Source: a virus. From it: a DNA stretch of 64,000 bases. Location of the stretch: IMG/VR virus record IMGVR_UViG_3300034111_001103, positions 1 to 64,000 of that record. One strand, given 5' to 3'. Shown here piece after piece: positions 17,441 to 29,775 of this stretch. The notes beneath the pieces were generated by a model. The model did not search any database and had not been told where the DNA came from. It saw only the letters and a program-made list of their open reading frames with translations. Position 1 is the first letter of the stretch, and each line of letters begins with the position of its first letter. Both the position numbers and the translations under genes were made by a program.

Positions 17441-18730
17441 TTAATTAAAATCTAACTTATCTTTAAAATTATTAATTAAAAGATACTTCAAGCAATCCAT
17501 TAAGTGTGAGAGTTCAGAGCCTGTGCCTGTAGTTTTCTTTAATAACTTACCATCACTACCCACTTCACAATAAGTCAAGTCATTTATCATAAGTTTACAA
17601 TTCGGATTTATAAAGCACAAATCAGTATGGAACGCCCTGCTAATTAACTCCCTACTATTCAAATTAGAATGATTAACACTAGGTATTACAAATTGATAAC
17701 CAGATAATTTTAACTTATCAGCAATCACTTGATAATAAGTTATTCCACCTTTACTAATTGCTTGTCTATTTTTGCCTGTGGCATCACCTGTTACCATTAT
17801 ATTATTAGACTTTGGCAGTCTCATTCTTATATGGTCGCATAGTTCGTAAATATCACTATCACGTAAAACAAACTCTTCAATTACTACAATCTTATTGCCT
17901 TGTAATTGCCCTGCAATACAAGTCATAGGGTTGACATTAAAGTCAAATGATAGATATATAGTTCCGTTATTATATTCACAATCTTTTACGTGCTTTTCTT
18001 TTCTGAATGTAGGTATAAATGGTTTATCTACTTCAGCTTTACCCCACTTACCATATAAATTGACATCGAGTAAATTTTGATTATGTGAATAATTGAGCCT
18101 TAAAGTTTCCTCATATTTTTCTCTATCTATAAATTCGTTATTGGCAAATGTAGAATGATTAACATAAGAATCTAAGAAGTCTATTTTTATTTTACTATCA
18201 TTATTTTCATCAAAGAAATAAGTTCTTAACCAACTATTGACATCTACTGGATTAAAGCTAATTATAAATTGATGATTTTTATTTAATGGAGTTCTTAAAA
18301 GTGCATTCAAAGTAGTAAAGTCATCTTGACTACCTTTGTTTATTTCATCCCACCATATAATAGTAGGGTCTGAAAGTCCTTTGGTATTTTCTGCATTATC
18401 CATTCCGAGTGCAGTAAATTCAGTACCTGTTATTAGGTTCTTAAAGCCATAATTTGTTTTATTAATACTAAAGTACTTAGTAAGTCCAAGTGCTTTTAAT
18501 ACTTTAATTATATCTTTGAATTGATTTTTTCTTATGTCACCAAATACCTTATTGACATATACTATATGATTATACTCTTGTAGAAATGATATTGCAATAA
18601 GTTTAAGTATAATATTATGTGTTTTACCACCACCTCGACCACCCCATAGTATTTGATACCTATTTTTAGATTGTAGGAAGGATTTGAAATGTTCACTATA
18701 CCATTCTCGTTTTATCTTGAATTTCTGCAT
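17441..18730 (-). CDS. terL: Terminase large subunit (phage A)
   Basis: 429 residues. Walker A is GGRGGGKT (near residue 31), Walker B is IIWWDE (near 125), followed by a typical coupling motif (IISFNPVD). The C-terminal RNase H-fold nuclease has FDFNVNP (first catalytic Asp), GDATGKN and DCLKYL. This is the PBSX/Terminase_3 type ATPase-nuclease that pumps DNA into the head. It overlaps the small subunit by one base (TAATG). Confidence 0.93.
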   Translation of the reverse strand: MQKFKIKREWYSEHFKSFLQSKNRYQILWGGRGGGKTHNIILKLIAISFLQEYNHIVYVNKVFGDIRKNQFKDIIKVLKALGLTKYFSINKTNYGFKNLITGTEFTALGMDNAENTKGLSDPTIIWWDEINKGSQDDFTTLNALLRTPLNKNHQFIISFNPVDVNSWLRTYFFDENNDSKIKIDFLDSYVNHSTFANNEFIDREKYEETLRLNYSHNQNLLDVNLYGKWGKAEVDKPFIPTFRKEKHVKDCEYNNGTIYLSFDFNVNPMTCIAGQLQGNKIVVIEEFVLRDSDIYELCDHIRMRLPKSNNIMVTGDATGKNRQAISKGGITYYQVIADKLKLSGYQFVIPSVNHSNLNSRELISRAFHTDLCFINPNCKLMINDLTYCEVGSDGKLLKKTTGTGSELSHLMDCLKYLLINNFKDKLDFN

Positions 18731-19123: not shown

Positions 19124-20164
19124 TTATATTAATTTATCTAACCATTGTAGTTTTATTTGATTAGCTATTTGTGCGGTCATTACTGGAGGTACACTCATAC
19201 CAATTAAATATTTTGGTTCTACATCTTGAAAGTCGTAATCGAGTGGGTAAGTGCCTATTTGGATATATTCGTTATCAGTTAAATAACCTTTTCCGCTACT
19301 ATGCAAATGAATACCGCCACCACTATCAGCAATTAAAGTATTGCTTATTTCTTTTGGGTGTTGTTTGTAAGTTCCAAAATAATGCCCTTTAGGGTGTACA
19401 CTTGAAACACTTTTACCCATAGGACAAATTTCAGCATAATCTTTTATTCCATCTCTTATTTCTTTTCTTTTTACATTTAATCCTTCATCTATTAATCCAA
19501 AAGGTATTGCGTCCTCACTAAACTCCAATTTCAATTTAGGTAAATTCAAATCCTTTCTTTGACAAATAAAAAACACACGTTCACGTTTTTGAGGTACTCC
19601 CATAGATGCTGCATTAAGTAAAAACAATTGTACATTATACCCTGCTTCATCAAATGCTTTAAATATCTTTTTTACATAAAGTTTAGCGTTACCTTGAATT
19701 AATCCTTTTACGTTTTCAGCTAATACTATTTTAGGTTGTAATTTCTTTGCAAGTGCTATGTATTCAAAAAACAAATCGTCTAAAACTTGTTCGGCTTGAC
19801 CCTCTTTAAATACCTTTTTTTTGCCCCAATCTTTTTCACGATTTCCAGCCATTGAAAAACTTGAACAAGGTGGAGAACCATCTAATAAATCCAAATTATA
19901 AAGTTCTTGAGGTATATCGGAACGCTTTACAAATTCTCTTATATCTTCTAAAAATAAATGTTTTGGTTTATGGTTTAATTGATAAACCTTTGCAATTTTA
20001 GGGTCTATTTCAACACCCCCTAAATGATTAAACCCTGCTAATTTATAACCCATAGTAGAGCCACCACCACAAATGAAAGTTCCAAAAACATTATAATCGT
20101 TTTTAGGTATTCCTTTTGAAGGATAGCCATCTGCTAAATTCCATTTATAGGGAAACAAGTGCAT
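19124..20164 (-). CDS. DNA (cytosine-5) methyltransferase
   Basis: 346 residues with the C5-methylase motifs in order. There is an AdoMet-binding FICGGGSTMG (motif I), the catalytic GSPPCSSFSMAG (motif IV) and ENV (motif VI). GVPQKRERVFFI (motif VIII), a target-recognition stretch and YLIGMSVPPV near the end (motif X region) follow. It should be active. Its start lies inside the end of the ParB-like gene (20-base overlap), so the two are coupled. It probably protects phage DNA from host restriction. No cognate nuclease is adjacent. Confidence 0.92.
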   Translation of the reverse strand: MHLFPYKWNLADGYPSKGIPKNDYNVFGTFICGGGSTMGYKLAGFNHLGGVEIDPKIAKVYQLNHKPKHLFLEDIREFVKRSDIPQELYNLDLLDGSPPCSSFSMAGNREKDWGKKKVFKEGQAEQVLDDLFFEYIALAKKLQPKIVLAENVKGLIQGNAKLYVKKIFKAFDEAGYNVQLFLLNAASMGVPQKRERVFFICQRKDLNLPKLKLEFSEDAIPFGLIDEGLNVKRKEIRDGIKDYAEICPMGKSVSSVHPKGHYFGTYKQHPKEISNTLIADSGGGIHLHSSGKGYLTDNEYIQIGTYPLDYDFQDVEPKYLIGMSVPPVMTAQIANQIKLQWLDKLI

Positions 20165-20720
20165 CGTATAATGTTTTTTCAGGACTTTGTCCGAGTTGCT
20201 GTAATTTGTCTTTTACGAAATTATAATCTTCTTCTGTAAATTCTAATTTGATTGTGTAATTTTGGTTTTCAAAATCGTTTGCATCAAATTCTTTGTTTTT
20301 ATCTGAATAGTCCTTTTCCTCCAATACCTCCACAAAAACCTCACTAACTTCAAACTCAAACTCATCTGCAAGTACTTCTACTAATTCAACATCAATGTTT
20401 TGATTTTTTTGTGCTACTGTATTTGCAAGTATCGAAGCCTTATGAAATTCTTTTGTACCGCTTTCAATATCCGTTCTTTTTATTACAACTGGAGTAGTTC
20501 CATCTGTTTCTACTATAATAGCATCATTTGTGAATTTTTGCCCTATTTTCTCGTGCCTAGCATTTCCGCTTATAATTACATTATCGTTGCTTATAGTTAC
20601 ACTTTCAATAATTCCTACTTGTTCTAGTGAATTATCTAGTGTGTGCATACCATACTCGGTGTGCTTGTTTGTATTCCTGCTATCAGGTTTTATATCTTTA
20701 AATTTTATTTTTGCCATCAC
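20145..20720 (-). CDS. ParB/Srx-domain protein
   Basis: 191 residues. Residues 4-75 match the ParB N-terminal/sulfiredoxin fold, with IKPDSRNTNKHTEYGMHTL, GIIESVTI and ISGNARHEKI corresponding to the usual nucleotide-binding and GxxR-H motifs. In phages such proteins are often linked to methyltransferase genes and terminase, as here, and are thought to bind DNA. The start is MM, and the second ATG (20717) is equally possible. Confidence 0.75.
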   Translation of the reverse strand: MMAKIKFKDIKPDSRNTNKHTEYGMHTLDNSLEQVGIIESVTISNDNVIISGNARHEKIGQKFTNDAIIVETDGTTPVVIKRTDIESGTKEFHKASILANTVAQKNQNIDVELVEVLADEFEFEVSEVFVEVLEEKDYSDKNKEFDANDFENQNYTIKLEFTEEDYNFVKDKLQQLGQSPEKTLYDALVSL

Positions 20721-20725
20721 TTAAT

Positions 20726-20821
20726 CTATTTTGAGCCATAATCAAATATAGTACTTTTTAATCTATTACAATTCACACTATCCCACACTTCATCACCTAC
20801 TTTAAATTTTGTTTTTTGCAT
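20726..20821 (-). CDS. 31-residue protein, unknown
   Basis: A short ORF with ATG at 20821 and TAG at 20726-20728. It reads MQKTKFKVGDEVWDSV at its start, a KOW/SH3-like opening seen in small phage proteins. It is preceded by an A-rich leader and followed five bases later by the ParB-like start. Confidence 0.5.
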   Translation of the reverse strand: MQKTKFKVGDEVWDSVNCNRLKSTIFDYGSK

Positions 20822-20845
20822 TTTGTTTGTTTTTAGTTTATTTGT

Positions 20846-20905
20846 TTAAAATGGCAATCCATCCTCTATTTCACTTTTAGTTGGTTCAGCTGGTGCTTTG
20901 GCAGT
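20846..20905 (-). pseudogene. In-frame continuation of the 20906 gene after a TGA codon
   Basis: Directly after the TGA at 20906-20908 the same frame continues for 19 codons and ends TAA. It encodes an Ala/Pro linker followed by an acidic tail ending EIEDGLPF. That tail resembles the acidic, Pro-Phe-terminated tip of single-stranded DNA-binding proteins. It looks like the original C-terminus, cut off by one base change, or reached only by readthrough. Confidence 0.55.
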
Positions 20906-21142
20906 TCAGTTACTACCATTACTTTTTGGCTCGTATGTATTTAATACTAAGCTCAAAGCGTTTTCATCTTTCTTTTGCTTTAATATGTCAAAGTTTACAT
21001 ACCCACTACTATTTGCATTTTCTTTTAAAAATGTGATAGCATCCTCTACTTTTATATTTAGAGTGCCTAATACGTATTCAGGAGCGCCCTGTCTAGGCAT
21101 CTTACCATAAAATCCTTTGCCATATACTTTTTCGTTTGCCAT
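20906..21142 (-). CDS. Putative single-stranded DNA-binding-like protein, shortened by TGA
   Basis: 78 residues, beginning MANEKVYGKGFYGKMP. The N-terminal ~70 residues form a small beta-rich domain (YVLGTLNIKVEDAITFLKEN) followed by a Ser/Asn linker. The TGA at codon 79 precedes an in-frame SSB-like tip (20846-20905). It lies in the minus-strand early run just downstream of 21146-21514. Family assignment rests on the tip motif and size and is tentative. Confidence 0.55.
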   Translation of the reverse strand: MANEKVYGKGFYGKMPRQGAPEYVLGTLNIKVEDAITFLKENANSSGYVNFDILKQKKDENALSLVLNTYEPKSNGSN

Positions 21143-21145
21143 TGT

Positions 21146-21514
21146 TTAATTATTTAATCGTTCTTTTAATTTAATATTGTCTATTTTTATTATGTTTAAC
21201 AAGTGGTCTGGTAGGTTTGAATTGATAATACAACTTGTATTATGTGATTCGTTTTCGTATTTTCCACTCCTGCAACCTATTAACTCTAATTTAATGTCGT
21301 CTATTGTCATGCCTTTAATTGTCAATAAACTACCATCTATTACAAGTGAAGCACCTATATCATTATTCTCAAACACTAGATTTTTACCTGTGTGAAAGTA
21401 ATTTACAGGGCAATTTATAAATTGTCTTATCTTGTTATCATATATTGCATATACTCTGCAAAATGCAGTTTTTCTAGTATTTATAATCTGTAAGACCTCT
21501 AAATGATATTGCAT
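21146..21514 (-). CDS. Early protein of unknown function
   Basis: 122 residues from the ATG at 21514, beginning MQYHLEVLQIINTRK. This start is preferred over the in-frame ATG at 21598 because a consensus promoter lies at 21519-21549 and would place the RNA start at this codon. The protein is mixed alpha/beta with no recognised motif. As the first minus-strand gene of the divergent control region it may be regulatory. Confidence 0.7.
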   Translation of the reverse strand: MQYHLEVLQIINTRKTAFCRVYAIYDNKIRQFINCPVNYFHTGKNLVFENNDIGASLVIDGSLLTIKGMTIDDIKLELIGCRSGKYENESHNTSCIINSNLPDHLLNIIKIDNIKLKERLNN

Positions 21515-21518
21515 AATG

Positions 21519-21549
21519 CAAAAATAGTACTTTTTTATTAATTTACAAA
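21519..21549 (-). promoter_or_regulatory. Consensus Bacteroidota promoter, minus strand
   Basis: On the minus strand TTTG (21546-21549) is followed by 19 bases and TATTTTTG (21519-21526), an exact match to TTTG-N19-TAnnTTTG. The ATG at 21514 begins five bases after the last G, so the message is leaderless or nearly so. Confidence 0.8.
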
Positions 21550-21635
21550 TTAAATTATATGAATTATTTAAACTAAATTTTATTGACTTAATTATCAATG
21601 ATTTACGATTTATTTTGCATATTTGTAAAAATTAA

Positions 21636-21667
21636 TTTTTATTTTCGTAAAAAGGTTATATATTTGC
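21636..21667 (+). promoter_or_regulatory. Early promoter, plus strand
   Basis: The -7 element is TATATTTG (21659-21666). The -33 box is weak (TTTT). The sequence GTAAAAAGGTTRTATATTTG here recurs almost unchanged at 35138-35157, so the two form a promoter family. It drives the plus-strand early genes from 21692 and is divergent to the promoter at 21519-21549. Confidence 0.65.
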
Positions 21668-21691
21668 ATATAATTTAAAACAAACAATATT

Positions 21692-21850
21692 ATGACAACT
21701 AAATTAAATCAATCAGCACCTATTTTTTGGAAAGGAAAACTTTGCAAGTTTATTAAATGGGAAACATTAAACTTTGGTGGTAAACTTAAAATCAAAATTG
21801 ATAAAAAGTTTATTGAGGCGGATATTTCAGAATTAACTAATAAAAACTAA
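21692..21850 (+). CDS. 52-residue protein, unknown
   Basis: The ATG at 21692 follows an A-rich leader (AAACAAACAATATT). The basic protein begins MTTKLNQSAPIFWKGK and contains a KLKIKIDKKFIE strand. It is the first gene after the plus-strand early promoter. It is small and unrecognised. Confidence 0.65.
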   Translation: MTTKLNQSAPIFWKGKLCKFIKWETLNFGGKLKIKIDKKFIEADISELTNKN

Positions 21851-21856
21851 AAAATC

Positions 21857-22066
21857 ATGCTAACATACTACACACTAGAATATTATCCCACTACTTCAAA
21901 TATTGGAGTTAGAAATATAAGTAGCACAGGAATATTTAAAGGCTCATTTGAACCTTTAAAACCTTATAATCTTAGCAATTCAGATTATGTAAGATTGCCT
22001 CATATTGATTATGAGCTATTAGGTAGAGTGCTGGAAGCTAAAAAAAATAAACTAAATAATAATTAA
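21857..22066 (+). CDS. 69-residue protein, unknown
   Basis: It starts six bases after the previous stop and three bases separate it from the helicase, so it is clearly in the same operon. It begins MLTYYTLEYYPTTSN, is Tyr/Asn/Leu-rich and ends in a basic tail. No motif is recognised. Confidence 0.7.
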   Translation: MLTYYTLEYYPTTSNIGVRNISSTGIFKGSFEPLKPYNLSNSDYVRLPHIDYELLGRVLEAKKNKLNNN

Positions 22067-22069
22067 AAT

Positions 22070-23434
22070 ATGGACTATTTAGAATTTATTAATAACAAAA
22101 AACATTCAATAGGAAACTTTGGATTTAAAGCAAATTATATTCCTGATATAGCTTTTGACTTTCAAAAATTCGTTATTGAAAAAGCTATTTTAAAAGGTCG
22201 TAGCGCTGTATTTTTAGATACAGGATTAGGAAAGACTTTAGTTCAATTATCATTAGCAAAAAACATTGTAAATCATACTAATAAAAAAGTATTGATTTTA
22301 ACACCTTTAGCGGTTGCTTTTCAATTTATTTTAGAAGCTGAAAAGTTAGGAATAGATGATATTGAATACTCAAAGGATGGTAAGCATACAAAAAAGATAG
22401 TAGTATGTAATTACGAGCGTTTACATTACTTTAATGAATCAGATTTTGTAGGAGTTATTTTAGACGAAAGTTCAATACTTAAAAATTTTGATGGTAAAAT
22501 AAAACAAGAGGTTACAAGCTTTGTTAAAAAGATACCTTATAGATTTTTATCTACTGCAACACCCTCTCCAAATGATTTTATAGAATTGGGAACAAGTAGT
22601 GAAGCTTTGGGTTATATGGGTTACATGGATATGTTAGGTAAGTTTTTTAAAAATAATCAAAACGATACAGGAGGAAATAACAATATAGGAGAAAAGTTCT
22701 ATTTAAAACCACACGCTGAAAGTGATTTCTTTGCGTGGGTTAATCAATGGTCAATTATGGCAAAGATGCCTAGTGATTTAGGATTTAGTAATGATAGGTA
22801 TAATTTACCTGAATTAATAATTAATAGACACGTTGTAGAAAATCAAAGTTTAATAGATGTTAACGGACAGATTCAAATGTTTACACCTATTGCAAAATCA
22901 ATGACAGAGGTTAGGCACGAACAAAATCAGACTGAAGAAAAAAGATGCGAAAAGGCTATAGAATTAGCAAATGGCAAAACATCAGTATATTGGTGTAATA
23001 CAAACAATGAAAGCAGTATATTAAAATCAAGCGACAAAGAAGCAGTAGAAATTATAGGAAGTCAAAGCATTGATAAAAAAGAAGAAATACTACTAGCATT
23101 TGCAAATGGCGAAATTAAAAGATTAATAACAAAGGCAAAAATGACCTCAATGGGTTTAAATTGGCAACACTGTAATCATTCAGTATTTTTTCCTACTTGG
23201 AGCTATGAGCAATATTATCAAGCTATAAGGCGTTTTTGGAGGTTCGGACAAAAAAACGATGTAACTATAGATATTGTAATTTCAGACGGACAAACTAGAG
23301 TTATTGAGGCATTGGAGCAAAAAACAAAAAAAGCAATAGAATTGCATAAAAATTTAACTCAAAATGTAAATAGAAGTTTTGAGAATAAAACAAAAGAATT
23401 TAATAAACAAATAATAAAACCTAAATTTATTTAA
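22070..23434 (+). CDS. SNF2/DEAD-type helicase
   Basis: 454 residues. There is a Walker A-like DTGLGKTLVQ (motif I), VLILTPLAVAFQ (Ia), VILDESSILKN (DExx, motif II), FLSTATPSPND (motif III) and, near the C-terminus, SYEQYYQAIRRFWRFGQ (motif VI). This is a superfamily 2 translocase of the SNF2 kind, with the two lobes separated by an insertion. It is followed after one base by a methyltransferase, a pairing often found in phages. It likely acts in replication or DNA remodelling. Confidence 0.85.
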   Translation: MDYLEFINNKKHSIGNFGFKANYIPDIAFDFQKFVIEKAILKGRSAVFLDTGLGKTLVQLSLAKNIVNHTNKKVLILTPLAVAFQFILEAEKLGIDDIEYSKDGKHTKKIVVCNYERLHYFNESDFVGVILDESSILKNFDGKIKQEVTSFVKKIPYRFLSTATPSPNDFIELGTSSEALGYMGYMDMLGKFFKNNQNDTGGNNNIGEKFYLKPHAESDFFAWVNQWSIMAKMPSDLGFSNDRYNLPELIINRHVVENQSLIDVNGQIQMFTPIAKSMTEVRHEQNQTEEKRCEKAIELANGKTSVYWCNTNNESSILKSSDKEAVEIIGSQSIDKKEEILLAFANGEIKRLITKAKMTSMGLNWQHCNHSVFFPTWSYEQYYQAIRRFWRFGQKNDVTIDIVISDGQTRVIEALEQKTKKAIELHKNLTQNVNRSFENKTKEFNKQIIKPKFI

Positions 23435-23435
23435 C

Positions 23436-24455
23436 ATGGTAAAAGAACAAGTAATAACAGAAAATTATGCAATATACAATAGCGATTGTATGTTAGTATT
23501 ACCTACACTAGAAAATGAAAGTATTGACTTATCAATATATAGCCCCCCTTTTGCAAATCTTTATACATATTCAAGTTCAGAACGTGATATGAGTAATGTT
23601 TCAAGTAATGAGGAGTTTTTTACTCAATATGAATTTCTTGTAAAAGAGATGGCAAGAGTTACAAAAAATGGTAGAATTAACGCTATCCATGTTACTGATT
23701 TGTTTAAATATAACGGTGCTTTAAGCGATTTTCCGGCTGATATAATTAAACTACATGAAAAGCATGGTTTTACTTATATGAGCCGAATTACAATATGGAA
23801 AGAACCATTAAGAGTAAGGCTTAAAACTATGGTACAGTCTTTAATGCACAAATTTATAGTTGAAGATAGTACCAAGAATTACCCAGCAATGCCTGACTAT
23901 ATTTTATTATTTAAGAAAAAAGGAGATAATAAAGTACCCGTAACTCATCCGTTTGGATTTACACACTATGCAGGCACTACGCCAATTTTACCTGAAACTG
24001 TTGGTATTTATAACCGTGCAAATGACACAGATTTTAAAAATGGTGCTGATTTATGGGAATATATTTGTAAAAAATATGAAAACCATAAAGAAGCAGGAAC
24101 AAACAAAAAAAGTCATATTATTTGGCAAAGATACGCGTCAGCAGTATGGGATGATATAAGGGCGGAAAATTGCCTACCTTATAAAGATTCAAAAGAAGAC
24201 GATGACGAAAAACATATTACACCTACTCAATTAGATGTTTTAGATAGAATAGTAGATTTATATTCAAATCCTAATGAGGTTGTGTTAAGTCCTTTTATGG
24301 GATGCGGTAGTGATGTTTTTAGTCCTGTTTCTATGGGTCGTAAAGCTATTGGTATTGAGTTAAAAGATAGCTATTTTAAACAAGCTAAATTGAATTTAAA
24401 AGAAGCTGAAAAACGATTTAATACCTATAAATTAGAAAATTCTTTACTATTTTAA
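23436..24455 (+). CDS. DNA methyltransferase, N4-cytosine/N6-adenine type
   Basis: 339 residues. The catalytic SPPF (motif IV, near residue 31) lies before the AdoMet-binding region near the C-terminus (FMGCGSDVF; GRKAIGIEL), the order of beta-class amino methylases. The target-recognition part is in between. The final bases run up to the promoter at 24456. It is coupled to the helicase. Confidence 0.85.
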   Translation: MVKEQVITENYAIYNSDCMLVLPTLENESIDLSIYSPPFANLYTYSSSERDMSNVSSNEEFFTQYEFLVKEMARVTKNGRINAIHVTDLFKYNGALSDFPADIIKLHEKHGFTYMSRITIWKEPLRVRLKTMVQSLMHKFIVEDSTKNYPAMPDYILLFKKKGDNKVPVTHPFGFTHYAGTTPILPETVGIYNRANDTDFKNGADLWEYICKKYENHKEAGTNKKSHIIWQRYASAVWDDIRAENCLPYKDSKEDDDEKHITPTQLDVLDRIVDLYSNPNEVVLSPFMGCGSDVFSPVSMGRKAIGIELKDSYFKQAKLNLKEAEKRFNTYKLENSLLF

Positions 24456-24487
24456 TTTGCAAAATCAAATATTATTTATTACTTTTG
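24456..24487 (+). promoter_or_regulatory. Promoter upstream of structured leader
   Basis: TTTG (24456-24459), a 20-base spacer, then TACTTTTG (24480-24487) match the Bacteroidota consensus. A start near 24494 would make a leader of about 115 bases before the gene at 24609. Confidence 0.7.
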
Positions 24488-24493
24488 CAGTAA

Positions 24494-24608
24494 ATCCACA
24501 AATCAATGTACAATTTTATTAACAATATAGCACCTGAAAACACATACCTCCGTATGTGGGTTAGTGGATTATCCAGAGGGTGCTTTTTTTCTTTAAAAAA
24601 TCCACTAA
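24494..24608 (+). ncRNA. Structured leader or small RNA with terminator
   Basis: Three elements are visible. A perfect hairpin CACATAC-CTCC-GTATGTG spans 24541-24558. An outer stem AGCACC (24529-24534) / GGTGCT (24579-24584) is followed by seven T, so it is a terminator. TTAGTGGATT (24561-24570) in the terminator loop is exactly complementary to AATCCACTAA (24599-24608), the ten bases directly before the start codon at 24609. This allows either a terminated short RNA of ~97 bases or a readthrough form in which the start region is paired. No known riboswitch class is recognised. Confidence 0.6.
24529..24590 (+). terminator. Terminator within the leader
   Basis: The AGCACC / GGTGCT stem encloses an inner hairpin and is followed by TTTTTTT (24584-24590). 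It lies 19 bases before the start codon of the replication-type gene, so expression of that gene would need readthrough. Confidence 0.65.
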
Positions 24609-25385
24609 ATGGCTAAAAGATTTACAGATACTGAATTATGGGATAAAGAATGGTTTATGACCTTATCTTTAAAGCAAAAATGTATAGTCAAATTTATTCG
24701 AGATAAAGCTGATTTATGCGGTGTTTGGTCGCCTAATTTTGTTATTGCATCTGCTTATATAGGTGAAAAAATAACTGAAAAAGACATATTAACAATAGAT
24801 AAAGGAAATCAATTTAGAAAATTAGATAATGGTAAAATTTATTGCATTGGATTTGTTGAATTTCAATATGGAAATATTTTGAGCGAAAAAAGTCCAATTC
24901 ATAAAAAAATTATTGGATTATTAGAAAATAATGGAATTTTAGAAAATTACAAGAAAGACTATTTATACCCTATCAATAGGGTATCAAATACCCTGCAAGA
25001 AGAAGAAGAAGTAAAAGAAGAATATAAAGTAAAAGAAAAAGAAGAAGTAAAAGAAATAAAACTTGCAAAAATTGAAAAAAATGAAATTGAACTACTTTTT
25101 GATGAATTTTTAAAGATGCGAGTTAAGATAAAAAAACCTGCTACTGATAAAGCTATTGATTTATTAAAAAAGAAACTCAATGAATTATCTGGTGGAAATG
25201 AATACAAGGCTATAAAAATAATTGAGCAATCAATAGTTGGTGGATGGCAGGATTTTTATGAATTAAAAAATGATACTAATACTGAAAGTAAAATAAGTAA
25301 GCTCAAATCAGTTTCAGACGAACTAGACATAAAATTAGGAATAAGCCAAAATAATCAATTAAAAACAAATGAGCAGAGTAATTAA
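24609..25385 (+). CDS. Putative replication initiation protein
   Basis: 258 residues. The N-terminal ~110 residues are a winged-helix-like domain (DTELWDKEWFMTLSLKQKC; SPIHKKIIGLLENNGILE). A Lys/Glu-rich linker follows, then a helical domain (residues 160-215, FDEFLKMRVKIKKPATDKA; GGWQDFYEL) like the C-terminus of phage replication/DnaD-like proteins. It probably binds the origin and loads helicase. Assignment by architecture. Confidence 0.65.
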   Translation: MAKRFTDTELWDKEWFMTLSLKQKCIVKFIRDKADLCGVWSPNFVIASAYIGEKITEKDILTIDKGNQFRKLDNGKIYCIGFVEFQYGNILSEKSPIHKKIIGLLENNGILENYKKDYLYPINRVSNTLQEEEEVKEEYKVKEKEEVKEIKLAKIEKNEIELLFDEFLKMRVKIKKPATDKAIDLLKKKLNELSGGNEYKAIKIIEQSIVGGWQDFYELKNDTNTESKISKLKSVSDELDIKLGISQNNQLKTNEQSN

Positions 25386-25719
25386 ATTTAGAGCTTGGTC
25401 AAAAGAAGCAGAAAAAATGAGTGATTGGGATTTTATCCATTCAGTTAGAAACCTTCATAAACTTATGACATTAAATCATATTGAATTAATGCAATTCACA
25501 GGACTTACTGATAAAAACGGAAAAGAAATTTATGAGGGGGATATTATTAAGTATTATGACAGAATTTCACAAATTAATTATAGTGATTTATATGCTTGTT
25601 TTATTATGTATAGTGAATTTGATAAACAAAGTTTTTCTTTATGTGGTTCTATAAATGATTCCAAAAGAGACTTAGAAGTAATTGGAAACATATTTGCAAA
25701 TCCAGAATTAATAAAATAA
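25369..25719 (+). CDS. YopX-family protein
   Basis: 116 residues with the family hallmarks: KFRAWSKEAEKM at the start, MQFTGLTDKNGKEIYEGDII in the middle, and a C-terminal VIGNIFANPEL. YopX proteins are very common in phages of low-GC and Bacteroidota hosts. Their function is unknown. It starts inside the end of the previous gene (17-base overlap). Confidence 0.9.
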   Translation: MSRVIKFRAWSKEAEKMSDWDFIHSVRNLHKLMTLNHIELMQFTGLTDKNGKEIYEGDIIKYYDRISQINYSDLYACFIMYSEFDKQSFSLCGSINDSKRDLEVIGNIFANPELIK

Positions 25720-25720
25720 T

Positions 25721-26461
25721 ATGAAATATCAAATTAAAGAAATTAAAGAATTTATTTTAAGATGCTATGCAAGTGCAGGGCAAAATTCAAATAGTGAGGA
25801 CGCAGCACTTTTAATAAATCTATTTTGTAGAGAGGTTGAAACGAATTGGAAAAGACATATAAGAATTACAAACAAAGGTCAAGAAAATGAAAACTGGAAC
25901 TTGAATGAGATATTTTACTTCATTGACTTAGGATTATCTAAAGTGTTTGGCGATTACTTTGGGATTAATTTAATCACTTTTAAGCAATTTGAACACGCTT
26001 ATAGCAAAAATGAAAATAGTTATTACAGAAAGCAATATTTGCTTAAGAATCCATTGCCAGTATTAGAAGCAATAGAACAACATACAGAAAGTGGCAAAGA
26101 TGAAATAGTAATTGATGCAATGATAAGTAAGCTAAAATCAAAGAATTATACAGATGCCGATTTGAATGTTTGGTATGACTTTTTAGAGCAAAAAGGAGCA
26201 ATAAAATTAGATAGATGGAAACAATATGAAACGGATGGAGCTGAAAAATACACACAGGAGTTACACAAACGCTCAAATTTTGCACAAAATAATAATTTGA
26301 AGGATTTATATAATGAAATAAAAAAAGCATTAGATTTGGCAAAAGAATTAAAATATGATGTAATTGAATTAGCTTACCACTCAAAGGTTCATTTTATGGA
26401 ATTAACTTTTTGCACAGATGAAAATATTAATAAACTAGAAACTTTTTTAAAAATTAAATAA
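25721..26461 (+). CDS. Unknown protein next to the replication genes
   Basis: 246 residues, helical, with a KQFEHAYSKNENSYYRKQYL segment and a C-terminal helical repeat region. The context after the initiator and YopX genes suggests a replication accessory such as a helicase loader, but there is no Walker motif. No family is recognised. Confidence 0.65.
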   Translation: MKYQIKEIKEFILRCYASAGQNSNSEDAALLINLFCREVETNWKRHIRITNKGQENENWNLNEIFYFIDLGLSKVFGDYFGINLITFKQFEHAYSKNENSYYRKQYLLKNPLPVLEAIEQHTESGKDEIVIDAMISKLKSKNYTDADLNVWYDFLEQKGAIKLDRWKQYETDGAEKYTQELHKRSNFAQNNNLKDLYNEIKKALDLAKELKYDVIELAYHSKVHFMELTFCTDENINKLETFLKIK

Positions 26462-26466
26462 ACTAA

Positions 26467-26646
26467 ATGGAAAAAGAACTCAAAGAACTTTTAAAGCTAA
26501 AAGAAAATGTAGTAAGATGGAATATGTGCGCTGAACTCGATGAAAGGCTAGGAGTAGACCCAACTAAATCAAATGAAAGTGCATTGTTTTACGAGCAGGA
26601 ATTGAATAGTAAATTGAAAAAGATTATTGAAACTTATGGGAAATAA
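26467..26646 (+). CDS. 59-residue coiled-coil protein at the edge of the cassette array
   Basis: The ATG at 26467 begins MEKELKELLKLKENVVRW. It is short, charged and helical, with a single WNMC. Its TAA stop (26644-26646) is part of the AAATAAC that opens the first attC-like palindrome, as for the gene 27626-27877. It may be the left-most cassette gene, but no matching GTTATTT is found at its 5' side. Confidence 0.65.
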   Translation: MEKELKELLKLKENVVRWNMCAELDERLGVDPTKSNESALFYEQELNSKLKKIIETYGK

Positions 26647-26766
26647 CGCCTACGGCTTGGCGAAGTTGCCGTATTCCAAATGCCAAATTGAAAAACAAAT
26701 GATAAATTTTAGTACAAATGTTAAATAGTAGTACAGAACGGCAATTTAGCCAAACCGATGTTACAG
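26641..26766 (+). repeat. attC-like palindrome 1
   Basis: It opens with AAATAAC. The arm 26653-26672 pairs with 26738-26757 (17 of 20), and the element ends with GTTACAG (26760-26766). The spacer contains TAAATAGTAGTACA (26722-26735), identical to 27938-27951 in palindrome 4. The ATG of the methyltransferase ORF (26718) lies in the spacer. Confidence 0.75.
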
Positions 26767-27440
26767 GAAGCCCTTTTAGAGTGCTTAATCTTTACGCTTG
26801 TTTAGGTGGTAACAGATATAAATGGACTGATTGCGAAGTTACAGCAGTTGAATTAGATAGTGAGCTGGCACGAATGTATCAAGAGAGATTTCCAAATGAT
26901 AAAGTGATAATAGCAGATGCACACCAATATCTACTTGAACATTATAAAGAATTCGATTTCATTTGGACTTCGCCACCTTGCCCAAGCCATAGCAGAGTAA
27001 GATTTACACAAAAAAATAAAGACTTTTATAATCCTATTTACCCGGAAATGACTTTGTATCAAGAAATCATTTTTTTAGAAAATCATTTTGAAGGTAAATA
27101 TGTAGTTGAAAATGTGATACCATACTATGAGCCTTTAATAACTGCACAACAAAGAGGAAGGCATTTATATTGGTGCAATTTTAAATTACCTAATAATATT
27201 GATAGAGAAGAATTAAAAGGATTAGTTGGTGGGAATACAAAATATGAAGTAAAAAAACTTTGTAAGCTACACGATATTGATATTGACTTTTTAAAATCGT
27301 ATAAAGGCGAACAAAGATTAGATAAAGTGATTAGAAATCTTGTTGATTATGAAGCTGGCTTAAACATTTTCAATACAGCAAGAGGAATTATTAATAGGTC
27401 AAATGTTAAAAGTCCTTCACTCTTTGATGGTGTCTTTTAG
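26718..27440 (+). CDS. Cassette-borne C5-type DNA methyltransferase
   Basis: 240 residues. Residues 1-14 (MLNSSTERQFSQTD) are encoded by palindrome 1, then VTGSP is read across the GTT crossover. The enzyme proper starts RVLNLYACLGGNRYKW (motif I). TSPPCPSHSR holds the catalytic PC (motif IV), ENV is motif VI, and QQRGRHLYW is motif VIII-like. It is shorter than usual C5 methylases (300 or more), with a compact C-terminal part. The stop is 10 bases before the AAC of the next palindrome. It probably modifies phage DNA against host restriction. Confidence 0.8.
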   Translation: MLNSSTERQFSQTDVTGSPFRVLNLYACLGGNRYKWTDCEVTAVELDSELARMYQERFPNDKVIIADAHQYLLEHYKEFDFIWTSPPCPSHSRVRFTQKNKDFYNPIYPEMTLYQEIIFLENHFEGKYVVENVIPYYEPLITAQQRGRHLYWCNFKLPNNIDREELKGLVGGNTKYEVKKLCKLHDIDIDFLKSYKGEQRLDKVIRNLVDYEAGLNIFNTARGIINRSNVKSPSLFDGVF

Positions 27441-27446
27441 GGTTTC

Positions 27447-27578
27447 CTGTAACGTTTGAGAATATGAGAAGTGGCGGGAAAAAAGGTTTGTAGTACCGAG
27501 TGTAAATCTGAAACCTTGAAATACCCATTAAGCTCGACAGTAGCCACTCTTAGCCATTTCTTATATTCTTTGTTATAA
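27447..27578 (+). repeat. attC-like palindrome 2
   Basis: It opens with CTGTAAC. The arm 27460-27475 pairs with 27553-27568 (14 of 16), and the element ends with GTTATAA (27572-27578). Complementarity between cassette ends is longer than 7 bases: 26760-26773 against 27440-27453 pairs at 13 of 14 positions. The spacer keeps a TAGTACCGA segment related to that in palindrome 4. Confidence 0.72.
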
Positions 27579-27593
27579 AATCGTTTTAATGTT

Positions 27594-27725
27594 TTATAAC
27601 GTAAAATAATAAAAGCAGTAGCGATATGAAAGAACAAATTGAAAATATATTGATAAAGGTTGATGAAGGCACGATGCCTGTTCAACAAGCACTAAGCGAG
27701 CTATTGCTTTTATTTAGTGTTAGCG
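27594..27725 (+). repeat. attC-like palindrome 3
   Basis: It opens with TTATAAC. The arm 27608-27622 pairs with 27700-27714 (14 of 15), and the element ends with GTTAGCG (27719-27725). Only 15 bases separate it from palindrome 2, so the cassette between them (starting 27573) is essentially empty. The start codon of the next ORF (27626) lies inside its spacer. Confidence 0.7.
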
Positions 27726-27877
27726 GTTCGTTGCCATCTATTGACCCATTAGATGACGAGAATAGCGAAATACATAAAATAGGTAGAGAAATAGCTGAAA
27801 TGTCCGATGAAGAGTTTGATAATAATTGTAAAGCAATAACAGATATGCTGTCAAGGTCGAAAGGCAATGACCGCTAA
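27626..27877 (+). CDS. Cassette ORF with N-terminus encoded by a palindrome
   Basis: 83 residues. Residues 1-31 come from palindrome 3 (helical, ending LLLLFS), then VSGSLP is read across the GTT crossover. A short acidic C-terminal part follows, ending KGNDR. Its TAA stop is part of the CGCTAAC that opens palindrome 4. The function is unknown. The VSGSLP junction parallels VTGSP in the methyltransferase cassette, as if a fixed N-terminal leader were joined to exchangeable bodies. Confidence 0.65.
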   Translation: MKEQIENILIKVDEGTMPVQQALSELLLLFSVSGSLPSIDPLDDENSEIHKIGREIAEMSDEEFDNNCKAITDMLSRSKGNDR

Positions 27878-28001
27878 CGTATGGGTATTGGCGAAGGGCA
27901 AGAATAGTAGTACCGATGTTCAACCTTTGCACAATGCTAAATAGTAGTACAACTGCTCAATTTATTACTTCTGCTTGCCTTTTGCCAATACATTGTTGTA
28001 C
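27872..28001 (+). repeat. attC-like palindrome 4
   Basis: It opens with CGCTAAC. The arm 27886-27902 pairs with 27974-27990 (15 of 17), and the element ends with GTTGTAC (27995-28001). Its spacer has two TAGTAGTAC copies and an ATG at 27934 that opens a 49-codon frame (to 28083) beginning MLNSST, as in palindrome 1. Here GTT is not in that frame. Confidence 0.75.
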
Positions 28002-28071
28002 GCTGTTTTTCTTTGGTATTCAGTACTTTACAAAGTATCTAAAAATAAATAATAAAATTTTAATAAAATTA

Positions 28072-28102
28072 TTTGGAAATTAAAATAAATGTTGTATATT
28101 TG
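28072..28102 (+). promoter_or_regulatory. Promoter inside cassette 4
   Basis: TTTG (28072-28075), exactly 19 bases, then TATATTTG (28095-28102) make a full consensus match. It drives the two short genes 28146-28331 and 28321-28479, so this cassette carries its own promoter. Confidence 0.8.
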
Positions 28103-28145
28103 TACTTGATAAGCAATTAAGCATATCACTAAAAAAAATAAAAAA

Positions 28146-28331
28146 ATGACAGCAAATTCAGTAGTATCAAGAGAAACATTCAATAATGATTTGAATAATT
28201 GCTTAACTATTTTAAGCAACTTGACAGAAAAAGAAAATATAAAAAGTGAAACTTATACTTACTACAAATGTGAGTATATATCTCCTGCGTTATACAAAAA
28301 AACAATAATTGTAGCTGTTTATGAAAATTAA
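28146..28331 (+). CDS. Cassette gene, 61 residues, possible toxin-antitoxin partner
   Basis: Preceded by a consensus promoter and A-rich leader. It begins MTANSVVSRETFNNDLNN and ends in a beta segment (TIIVAVYEN). It overlaps the next small gene by 11 bases. A promoter plus two short overlapping genes is a typical toxin-antitoxin layout, common in integron cassettes. There is no sequence recognition to confirm it. Confidence 0.65.
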   Translation: MTANSVVSRETFNNDLNNCLTILSNLTEKENIKSETYTYYKCEYISPALYKKTIIVAVYEN

Positions 28332-28479
28332 GAAAAAAAGCCCTGCTGGTAGAAAGCCTGTTGAAGATAAAAAAGTGGTTGTAAACTTATTTATTCGTCA
28401 GTCAGAATTAGACAAACGAGGTGGCAAAGAAGAAGTCCAAAAGTCTTGTTATGAGTTTTTGGGTGTGTCCGCAAAATAG
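28321..28479 (+). CDS. Cassette gene, 52 residues, basic DNA-binding-like
   Basis: ATG at 28321, TAG at 28477-28479. It begins with a basic patch (MKIKKKSPAGRKPVEDKK), then a strand (VVVNLFIRQ) and a helix (ELDKRGGKEEVQKSCYEFL). That is the order of a ribbon-helix-helix-like fold. The stop codon lies in the inverted repeat that ends the cassette (28473-28487). It could be the antitoxin or regulator of the two-gene unit. Confidence 0.6.
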   Translation: MKIKKKSPAGRKPVEDKKVVVNLFIRQSELDKRGGKEEVQKSCYEFLGVSAK

Positions 28480-28487
28480 CGTACAAC
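28473..28487 (+). repeat. Cassette 4 end, orphan 5' half of an attC-like site
   Basis: AAAATAGCGTACAAC is the reverse complement of 27995-28009 with one mismatch, so it closes the cassette that starts at 27996. No paired arms or GTT 7-mer follow at the expected distance (~28607), so the array is cut here and phage sequence resumes. Confidence 0.65.
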
Positions 28488-28532
28488 TAGTAGATTGTAG
28501 AAATTAATTGTACAATAAAACATTAATTATCA

Positions 28533-28751
28533 ATGCAAATTTATACAAAATGGATAGCTTATGATGGATTAGTAGGAGTAACTGAAATTTACGAATACTA
28601 TGATTTAACAACTTGCAAAAGATTAATTAAAGAAGTGCATCAAGGCTCAATTTACTATAGAGAAAATGGAAGTAAAAAAAGGTATTCTTTTAACAAAATA
28701 AATAAAACTAAGAAATTAGAAAAAATTGAAATTATTAATTTACCATTTTAA
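28533..28751 (+). CDS. 72-residue protein, unknown
   Basis: The first gene after the cassette array. It begins MQIYTKWIAYDGLVGVTE. It is small, basic and beta-rich with a lysine-rich end. It runs with 28763-29059 (11 bases apart). No motif is recognised. Confidence 0.65.
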   Translation: MQIYTKWIAYDGLVGVTEIYEYYDLTTCKRLIKEVHQGSIYYRENGSKKRYSFNKINKTKKLEKIEIINLPF

Positions 28752-29124: not shown

Positions 29125-29775
29125 ATGAAACAAGAAAATTACTCACAAGTTAAAATGATAGGAGAATGGCTTATCAGAGGTCGCAAGAATGGACAAGAAT
29201 ATAATATAGACCATTTTATAAATGATGTACACTTAGTATTCAATAATAAATTAAGTCCAGATATACTAGTTTTTGAACAACATATAGACTATCTTATACA
29301 TCTATGTTGTATTGAATTTAATTGCACTATTGATGAAATAAAAGGCAAAACAAGATTAAGACACATAGTATTAGCTAGACATATTGCAATGTATATACTA
29401 AAAATGAATAGAGCAGGAACGCTTTATGCTATTGGTAAAATGTTTGGAATGCGTGACCACTCGACTGTTATTCATGCTTGTAATCAAATAGAAGTATTAT
29501 TAGACTTAAAAGATACTGGGTACTTGCATTATTTGAATATCTTAGAAAAATTCAATGCTTATATAGGAGAAGAACAAATACAAGTAGATGAGAATACTGA
29601 AATACAAAAACCTGTTGTAGCGTTCCCTATTGATAATTTAAAGTATGATATTATGGATAAAATTCAGTACATCGAAAATTTAAATACAAAGGATGTTGAA
29701 ATAAAAAGAATGACTGGTGTTGAAAAATCTACCTATGAAAATGTACTTGAAATGATTAAAAATAATGAACAATAG
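29125..29775 (+). CDS. Protein with a DnaA-type DNA-binding domain (domain IV-like)
   Basis: 216 residues. Residues ~65-135 match the DnaA C-terminal helix-turn-helix, with CTIDEIKGKTRLRHIVLARH as the basic loop and helix and MRDHSTVIHACNQI as the DnaA signature. The AAA+ ATPase part of DnaA is absent. It would bind DnaA-box-like sites, perhaps the phage origin or host oriC. It overlaps the next gene by 11 bases. Confidence 0.85.
   Translation: MKQENYSQVKMIGEWLIRGRKNGQEYNIDHFINDVHLVFNNKLSPDILVFEQHIDYLIHLCCIEFNCTIDEIKGKTRLRHIVLARHIAMYILKMNRAGTLYAIGKMFGMRDHSTVIHACNQIEVLLDLKDTGYLHYLNILEKFNAYIGEEQIQVDENTEIQKPVVAFPIDNLKYDIMDKIQYIENLNTKDVEIKRMTGVEKSTYENVLEMIKNNEQ

Follow-up and report, generated by a model that had tools for sequence, protein, structure and literature searches.

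A putative mobile two-gene operon at the end of a three-cassette, integron-like array in a fixed phage slot

The window analyzed here covers the opening 64,000 bases of a phage record that is 168,934 bases long. It contains a short array whose features, as given below, all lie on the plus strand. A 59-aa phage ORF (26467–26646) ends in a stop codon that overlaps the left junction of the array, AAATAA|C (the bar marks the joining point). Three attC hairpin sites, found by a scan for AAC...GTT sites with pairing arms, follow at 26641–26766 (attC1, arm-pairing score −27.7), 27447–27578 (attC2, −26.8), and 27872–28001 (attC3, −31.0). Cassette A encodes a C5 cytosine methyltransferase (26718–27440; Pfam PF00145, E 2.4e-8), and its start codon sits within attC1. 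Cassette B holds an 83-aa gene (27626–27877) with no Pfam or NCBIfam family above the cut-off. Cassette C (27878–28486), the subject of this report, appears to be a mobile unit made up of the body of attC3, which we assign to this downstream cassette, a leader, and two genes, ORF1 and ORF2. AA|C is found at both of its ends. On the right, the R'' box GTACAAC (28481–28487) lies at the recombination junction and forms an inverted match to the cassette start. It is followed by a conserved attI-like platform flank (28485–28551; first bases AACTAGTAGAT), which is 100% identical over 67 nt in a sister phage, L035. A gene for a protein consisting only of a DnaA C-terminal DNA-binding domain (29125–29775; Bac_DnaA_C, E 3.1e-21) lies near the platform, and a similar-looking gene, judged by eye, adjoins the array of L017 (G005 18111–18512).

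A weaker attC-like hairpin (−20.0; 27594–27732), with cores TTATAAC and a GTT box, covers the first half of the cassette B coding region. A related gene in L033/L034 (L033 7025–7144) shares only that first half, with 76% DNA identity over 27602–27721, as if C-termini had been swapped via recombination within the gene.

The three sites, all within 26641–28001, are the only attC-like hairpins above the threshold in the whole record; at the same threshold the rest of it gave none on either strand (334,868 bases). All three are R''-L''...L'-R' hairpins with AAC/GTT cores, and the cassette ends are complementary, an R' start pairing with an R'' end. The inverted match covers 13 of 14 positions in cassettes A and C, 12–13 of 14 in nine of the 13 cassettes tested, and 9–10 of 14 in the other four. 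The hairpins and the pairing ends uphold the description of this DNA as an integron-type cassette in the earlier note, which was made from the sequence alone. A tyrosine integrase (PF00589) was found neither in the 168,934-base record nor in the ten other records searched; the array is therefore CALIN-like, not a complete integron. This kind of array in phages is already on record (PMC9892861). A search with attC3 in INPHARED, which covers phages only, gave no match.

An AT-rich leader (27995–28145; first bases GTTGTACGCTG) precedes the two genes of cassette C and carries the promoter TTTG-N19-TATATTTG at 28072–28102. This would be a promoter of the Bacteroidota type, which may point to a host in that phylum. 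The window has two exact sites, whereas 100 dinucleotide shuffles give an expectation of 0.09, and only one of 5000 local shuffles of 27995–28145 contained one. The leader aligns to that of a cassette in another phage contig, L003, with 101 of 109 alignment columns identical, and the same promoter spacing is seen in L003, L014, and L017. The shuffles and the matching leader thus support the promoter that had been proposed at this position. An inverted repeat in the window leader is no better than chance (184 of 300 shuffles equally good). The L014 leader is the only one with a repeat in excess of chance (3 of 300 shuffles equally good). This is a 12-nt perfect inverted repeat at offsets 62–73 and 84–95 from the cassette start; it flanks the −33 box of the L014 cassette promoter and is a candidate operator.

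The two short overlapping genes already noticed in the earlier reading are present and share 11 nt. ORF1 (28146–28331; 61 aa, pI 5.2) is the variable first gene, and ORF2 (28321–28479; 52 aa, pI 9.9, with 14 K+R and 7 D+E) is the last. Over 46 codons, ORF2 differs from its L002 counterpart at 3/0/10 first, second, and third codon positions and from its L003 counterpart at 4/1/11. Because the differences fall mainly at third positions, we regard ORF2 as a real protein under protein-level selection. A basic strand-helix layout had been suggested for one of the genes, and the AlphaFold2 model of ORF2, although middling (mean pLDDT 73.9), backs it with an extended stretch at residues 18–26 and helices at 27–32 and 36–47, a beta-alpha-alpha layout. 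On this middling model, and on a resemblance judged by eye, ORF2 is probably a small ribbon-helix-helix regulator and likely binds DNA. Foldseek against the PDB and profile searches gave no match for ORF2, and a viral fold search gave two, both insignificant. For ORF1, only one of five models exceeded pLDDT 60, and the best PDB hit of the fold search was not significant (E 0.11). Neither protein matched a Pfam or NCBIfam family or a PADLOC entry. ORF2 had no match in INPHARED or PLSDB, and ORF1 had none in INPHARED, where phages only were searched. Two genome-contig scans for host homologues returned a single match, on a contig of a Treponema MAG (40% across some 40 residues), which looked coincidental by eye and was discarded.

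A scan with the gene left of the array returned six loci, five of them spanning the site. When the window is compared with L031–L035, both flanks are common and the cassettes differ; L033 and L034 hold identical cassette content. The window and L031 are 100% identical over 19721–27880, and the match resumes at 28479 (99%). The difference amounts to one unit, cassette C in the window and an N6/N4 methyltransferase cassette in L031. The right side of the window is matched by L032 only from 28750 on. The 59-aa ORF is 98–100% identical in L031, L032, and L035, and in each the array DNA then starts at AA|C; L031 has the array start of the window, and L032 and L035 have other starts. The left junction AAATAA|C is therefore common to these four loci, and it also occurs in L033/L034 after a shorter flank. 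On the right, AA|C is the junction in all six loci (the window and L031–L035), in the forms GCGTACAA|C, GCGTATAA|C, GCTGGTAA|C, GCAGGTAA|C, and CCTAAAA|C. The sequence after the junction C is TAGTAGATTG or TAGTATATTG, L032 excepted. These alignments show that three integron-like cassettes occupy a fixed slot of the phage genome, with cassette C as the last, and that the content of the slot differs in sister phages. The slot-mates include N6/N4, D12, and C5 DNA methyltransferases and a nucleoside deoxyribosyltransferase-like protein.

The same ends are met outside this slot. In L017, whose flanking genes look unrelated, the array ends in GTTGCCTAA|CTAGTATATAT, again with AA|CTAGTATAT. The motif AACTAGTAKAT has nine copies in the 11 records, six at array ends (in six of the 11 records) and three elsewhere; its reversed control has none. 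The L014 unit interrupts a phage ORF at ACAA|C, and an 89-codon frame is restored when the flanks are joined; no intact homologue of this 89-aa frame was found in phages or plasmids. The right-hand attC of cassette C had been described as cut short. It is true that the sequence ends after GCGTACAAC; this end, however, is a recombination junction and not a broken attC. We rejected truncation since the related arrays, L014, and L017 end likewise. By eye, three arrays are exceptions to the rule: the L002 array finishes with an attC that is cut short behind the 5' arm, L003 extends past the end of its contig, and the right end of L004 does not show it. No empty platform was found; the flank scan returned only four contigs already known. 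Two extra exact copies of AACTAGTAKAT lie on the minus strand of the phage record (G000 29261–29271 and 129276–129286) with no cassettes adjoining, and these are possibly unused platforms or chance occurrences. In L002 the terminase large subunit gene (594–2366) has an intein-like insertion near the C-terminus, judged by eye from its CFIGSTKI start and HNC end.

The slot could also be a product of ordinary phage mosaicism, in which homologous or illegitimate exchange replaces the content and the attC-like hairpins are relics of host arrays that undergo no site-specific recombination. The lack of an integrase in the 11 records agrees with this, and phage CALINs have been attributed partly to such events (PMC9892861). 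However, AA|C marks the exchange boundaries of eight arrays (L033 and L034 are alike), even within the L014 ORF; the cassette ends pair, and the platform motif recurs in an unrelated context. Mosaicism is for these reasons an unlikely explanation.

In classical integrons an attC belongs to the preceding gene, and crossover takes place at G|TT of the R' box. Here the junctions lie instead at AA|C of R'', and ownership is reversed as well. The attC3 body is identical at 110 of 118 positions to the attC of L014, which precedes the same leader start, and only at 69 of 122 to the attC of L031, which follows the same gene B. Similarly, attC1 shares 84 of 121 positions with the L035 site before a related methyltransferase, against 71 of 121 and 42 of 113 with sites behind the same 59-aa gene. 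These comparisons indicate that each attC moves together with the gene downstream of it, opposite to classical integrons. At 12 of 35 sites, those of both C5 methyltransferases among them, the attC contains a start codon from which a frame continues for 30 codons or more into the cassette; the L014 case leads into the promoter leader and probably has no meaning. Because in-frame starts recur inside attC, the site may supply both a start codon and an N-terminus. A recurrent start within attC, for example MLNSST or MNTQLNSST, is in frame with the downstream cassette gene; starts of this kind are found at 26718 in the window, 7470 in L035, 8212 in L031, and 3557 in L002.

The point of recombination, at R' or not, reveals which attC strand was used, and in Bouvier et al. 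2009 (PMC2727003) classical recombination uses the bottom strand, at R', with IntI1 binding the bottom strand and not the top. The strand described there is the bottom one, whereas the natural junctions here point to the coding strand. The hairpin arms are stabler on the coding strand at 30 of 33 sites (DNA parameters), a preference that is biased by ascertainment because the sites were chosen by coding-strand pairing. We strongly infer that integron-type recombination, acting on the coding strand at AA|C of the R'' box, both inserts and removes units.

The two genes of cassette C behave as separable parts. ORF2 recurs at 92–94% identity in two other phage contigs, with more distant relatives elsewhere. 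In L003 it follows the same leader and an unrelated 76-aa first gene, and in L002 the first gene is an unrelated one of 56 aa. ORF1 has a homologue (63%) in L017, within a complete cassette with its own TTTG-N19-TATATTTG, where a different small basic protein follows with the same kind of overlap. The same plan is built from other genes in L014 and in a second L017 cassette (2118–2620), and the promoter with this spacing is found in four cassettes of two-gene build. A strict promoter match within the first 220 nt occurs in three of 35 attC-bounded cassettes (cassette C and those of L014 and L017), and the last gene of each is a small regulator-like one. Relaxing the promoter adds one L017 cassette, whose last gene matches HTH_24 weakly and below the cut-off (E 0.048). 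The association gives a Fisher p of about 1e-4, a post hoc value from related arrays with regulators called partly by eye. An operon of two genes with its own promoter and a small basic regulator-like second gene, as first suggested for this locus, is thus supported.

We consider it somewhat better than even (about 0.55) that cassette C, moved with reverse polarity, is a regulated operon of the Aca-like type encoding an accessory protein with a possible role in counter-defence. Recombination would take place beside the attI-like platform AACTAGTAKAT, with an integrase supplied by the host; the precise empty site predicted is AAATAA joined to CTAGTAGATTG, that is, AAATAA|CTAGTAG. The strong cassette promoter would drive ORF1, whose small accessory product probably targets the defences or physiology of the host at an early stage of infection. 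ORF2 would then bind the leader and shut the operon down, following the logic of anti-CRISPR/Aca operons. The promoter and the mobility of the cassette are well supported, and ORF2 may repress its own promoter. As promoter and regulator travel along, the cassette would be expressed wherever it landed, and the first gene could be exchanged behind this constant pair.

Counter-defence is favored by the slot-mates, which comprise DNA methyltransferases and a deoxyribosyltransferase-like protein, and by the plan that this cassette has in common with Aca-type operons. The earlier note had also offered an anti-phage role, in which ORF1 would be a defence or superinfection-exclusion protein against other phages. 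A mobile cassette in which small variable genes come with a regulator of their own is compatible with that role, which is possible. The slot-mates, however, are modification enzymes typical of counter-restriction, and neither gene matched PADLOC; counter-defence fits better given the methyltransferases in the sister-phage slot, and a defence role seems improbable.

Type II antitoxins need a toxin-binding tail, and both second proteins, ORF2 and its L017 counterpart, stop within a few residues of the DNA-binding core. A type II toxin–antitoxin pair, with ORF1 as toxin and ORF2 as ribbon-helix-helix antitoxin and autorepressor, kept since its loss kills, had been proposed from the two short overlapping genes, the basic regulator in second place, and the promoter, and an integron carried by a phage is reported to contain a toxin–antitoxin cassette that has a promoter of its own (PMC9892861). 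We set this reading aside as improbable, since partners swap both ways (one ORF2 behind three unrelated first genes, one ORF1 before two unrelated second genes, and hence no cognate pairing), neither second protein has the tail, and PADLOC, NCBIfam, and Pfam gave no match. A role in stabilizing the array, also suggested earlier, does not follow because the array is in a phage and not in a host integron.

The regulated counter-defence operon may be one part of a larger arrangement, which we put forward tentatively. In this phage family, an integrase-less integron platform of reverse polarity, AACTAGTAKAT, would receive units that carry their attC 5' of the gene, often with its start codon, through R'' recombination on the coding strand. 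Some units would be self-contained operons of promoter, exchangeable small gene, and autorepressor, and together they would form a shared counter-defence library drawn upon via the host integrase. In bacteria, integrons are known for collecting resistance genes. The phage lineage described here points to precise, repeated cassette turnover at one site, with a polarity opposite to the textbook one. If this is true, phages swap counter-defence genes from the integron pool, either strand of an attC site can be read in nature, and the constant promoter and regulator could serve as bait for new small anti-defence proteins.

Parts of this arrangement have precedents. Anti-CRISPR/Aca operons have the same plan, with one or more small variable genes and a small DNA-binding regulator under one promoter, and Aca2 is an autorepressor (PMC8434428). 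Aca2 is a helix-turn-helix protein, whereas the candidate regulator here is probably ribbon-helix-helix and lies on an attC cassette. In archaeal viruses a conserved early promoter marks diverse anti-defence genes (PMC11065993), likewise a constant regulatory sequence ahead of unrelated small genes; in contrast, the unit here is a recombination cassette, and its last gene is the candidate regulator. A further likeness is to the phage CALINs of Qi et al. 2023 (PMC9892861), attC arrays without an integrase in virulent phages, including Polaribacter phage P12002L with its methyltransferase cassettes. The phage attC clusters are described there as captured components. Their attC sites recombine with IntI1, five of six tested being verified into attI1 at the R-R' box; the array reported here differs in its R'' coding-strand junctions, in attC sites that belong to the downstream gene, and in turnover at one platform among sister phages. 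Searches of an open-access library brought up phage CALINs and studies of attC strand choice, and no report of a phage platform with R''-type turnover. By eye, the array of P12002L also ends in a junction of the R'' type.
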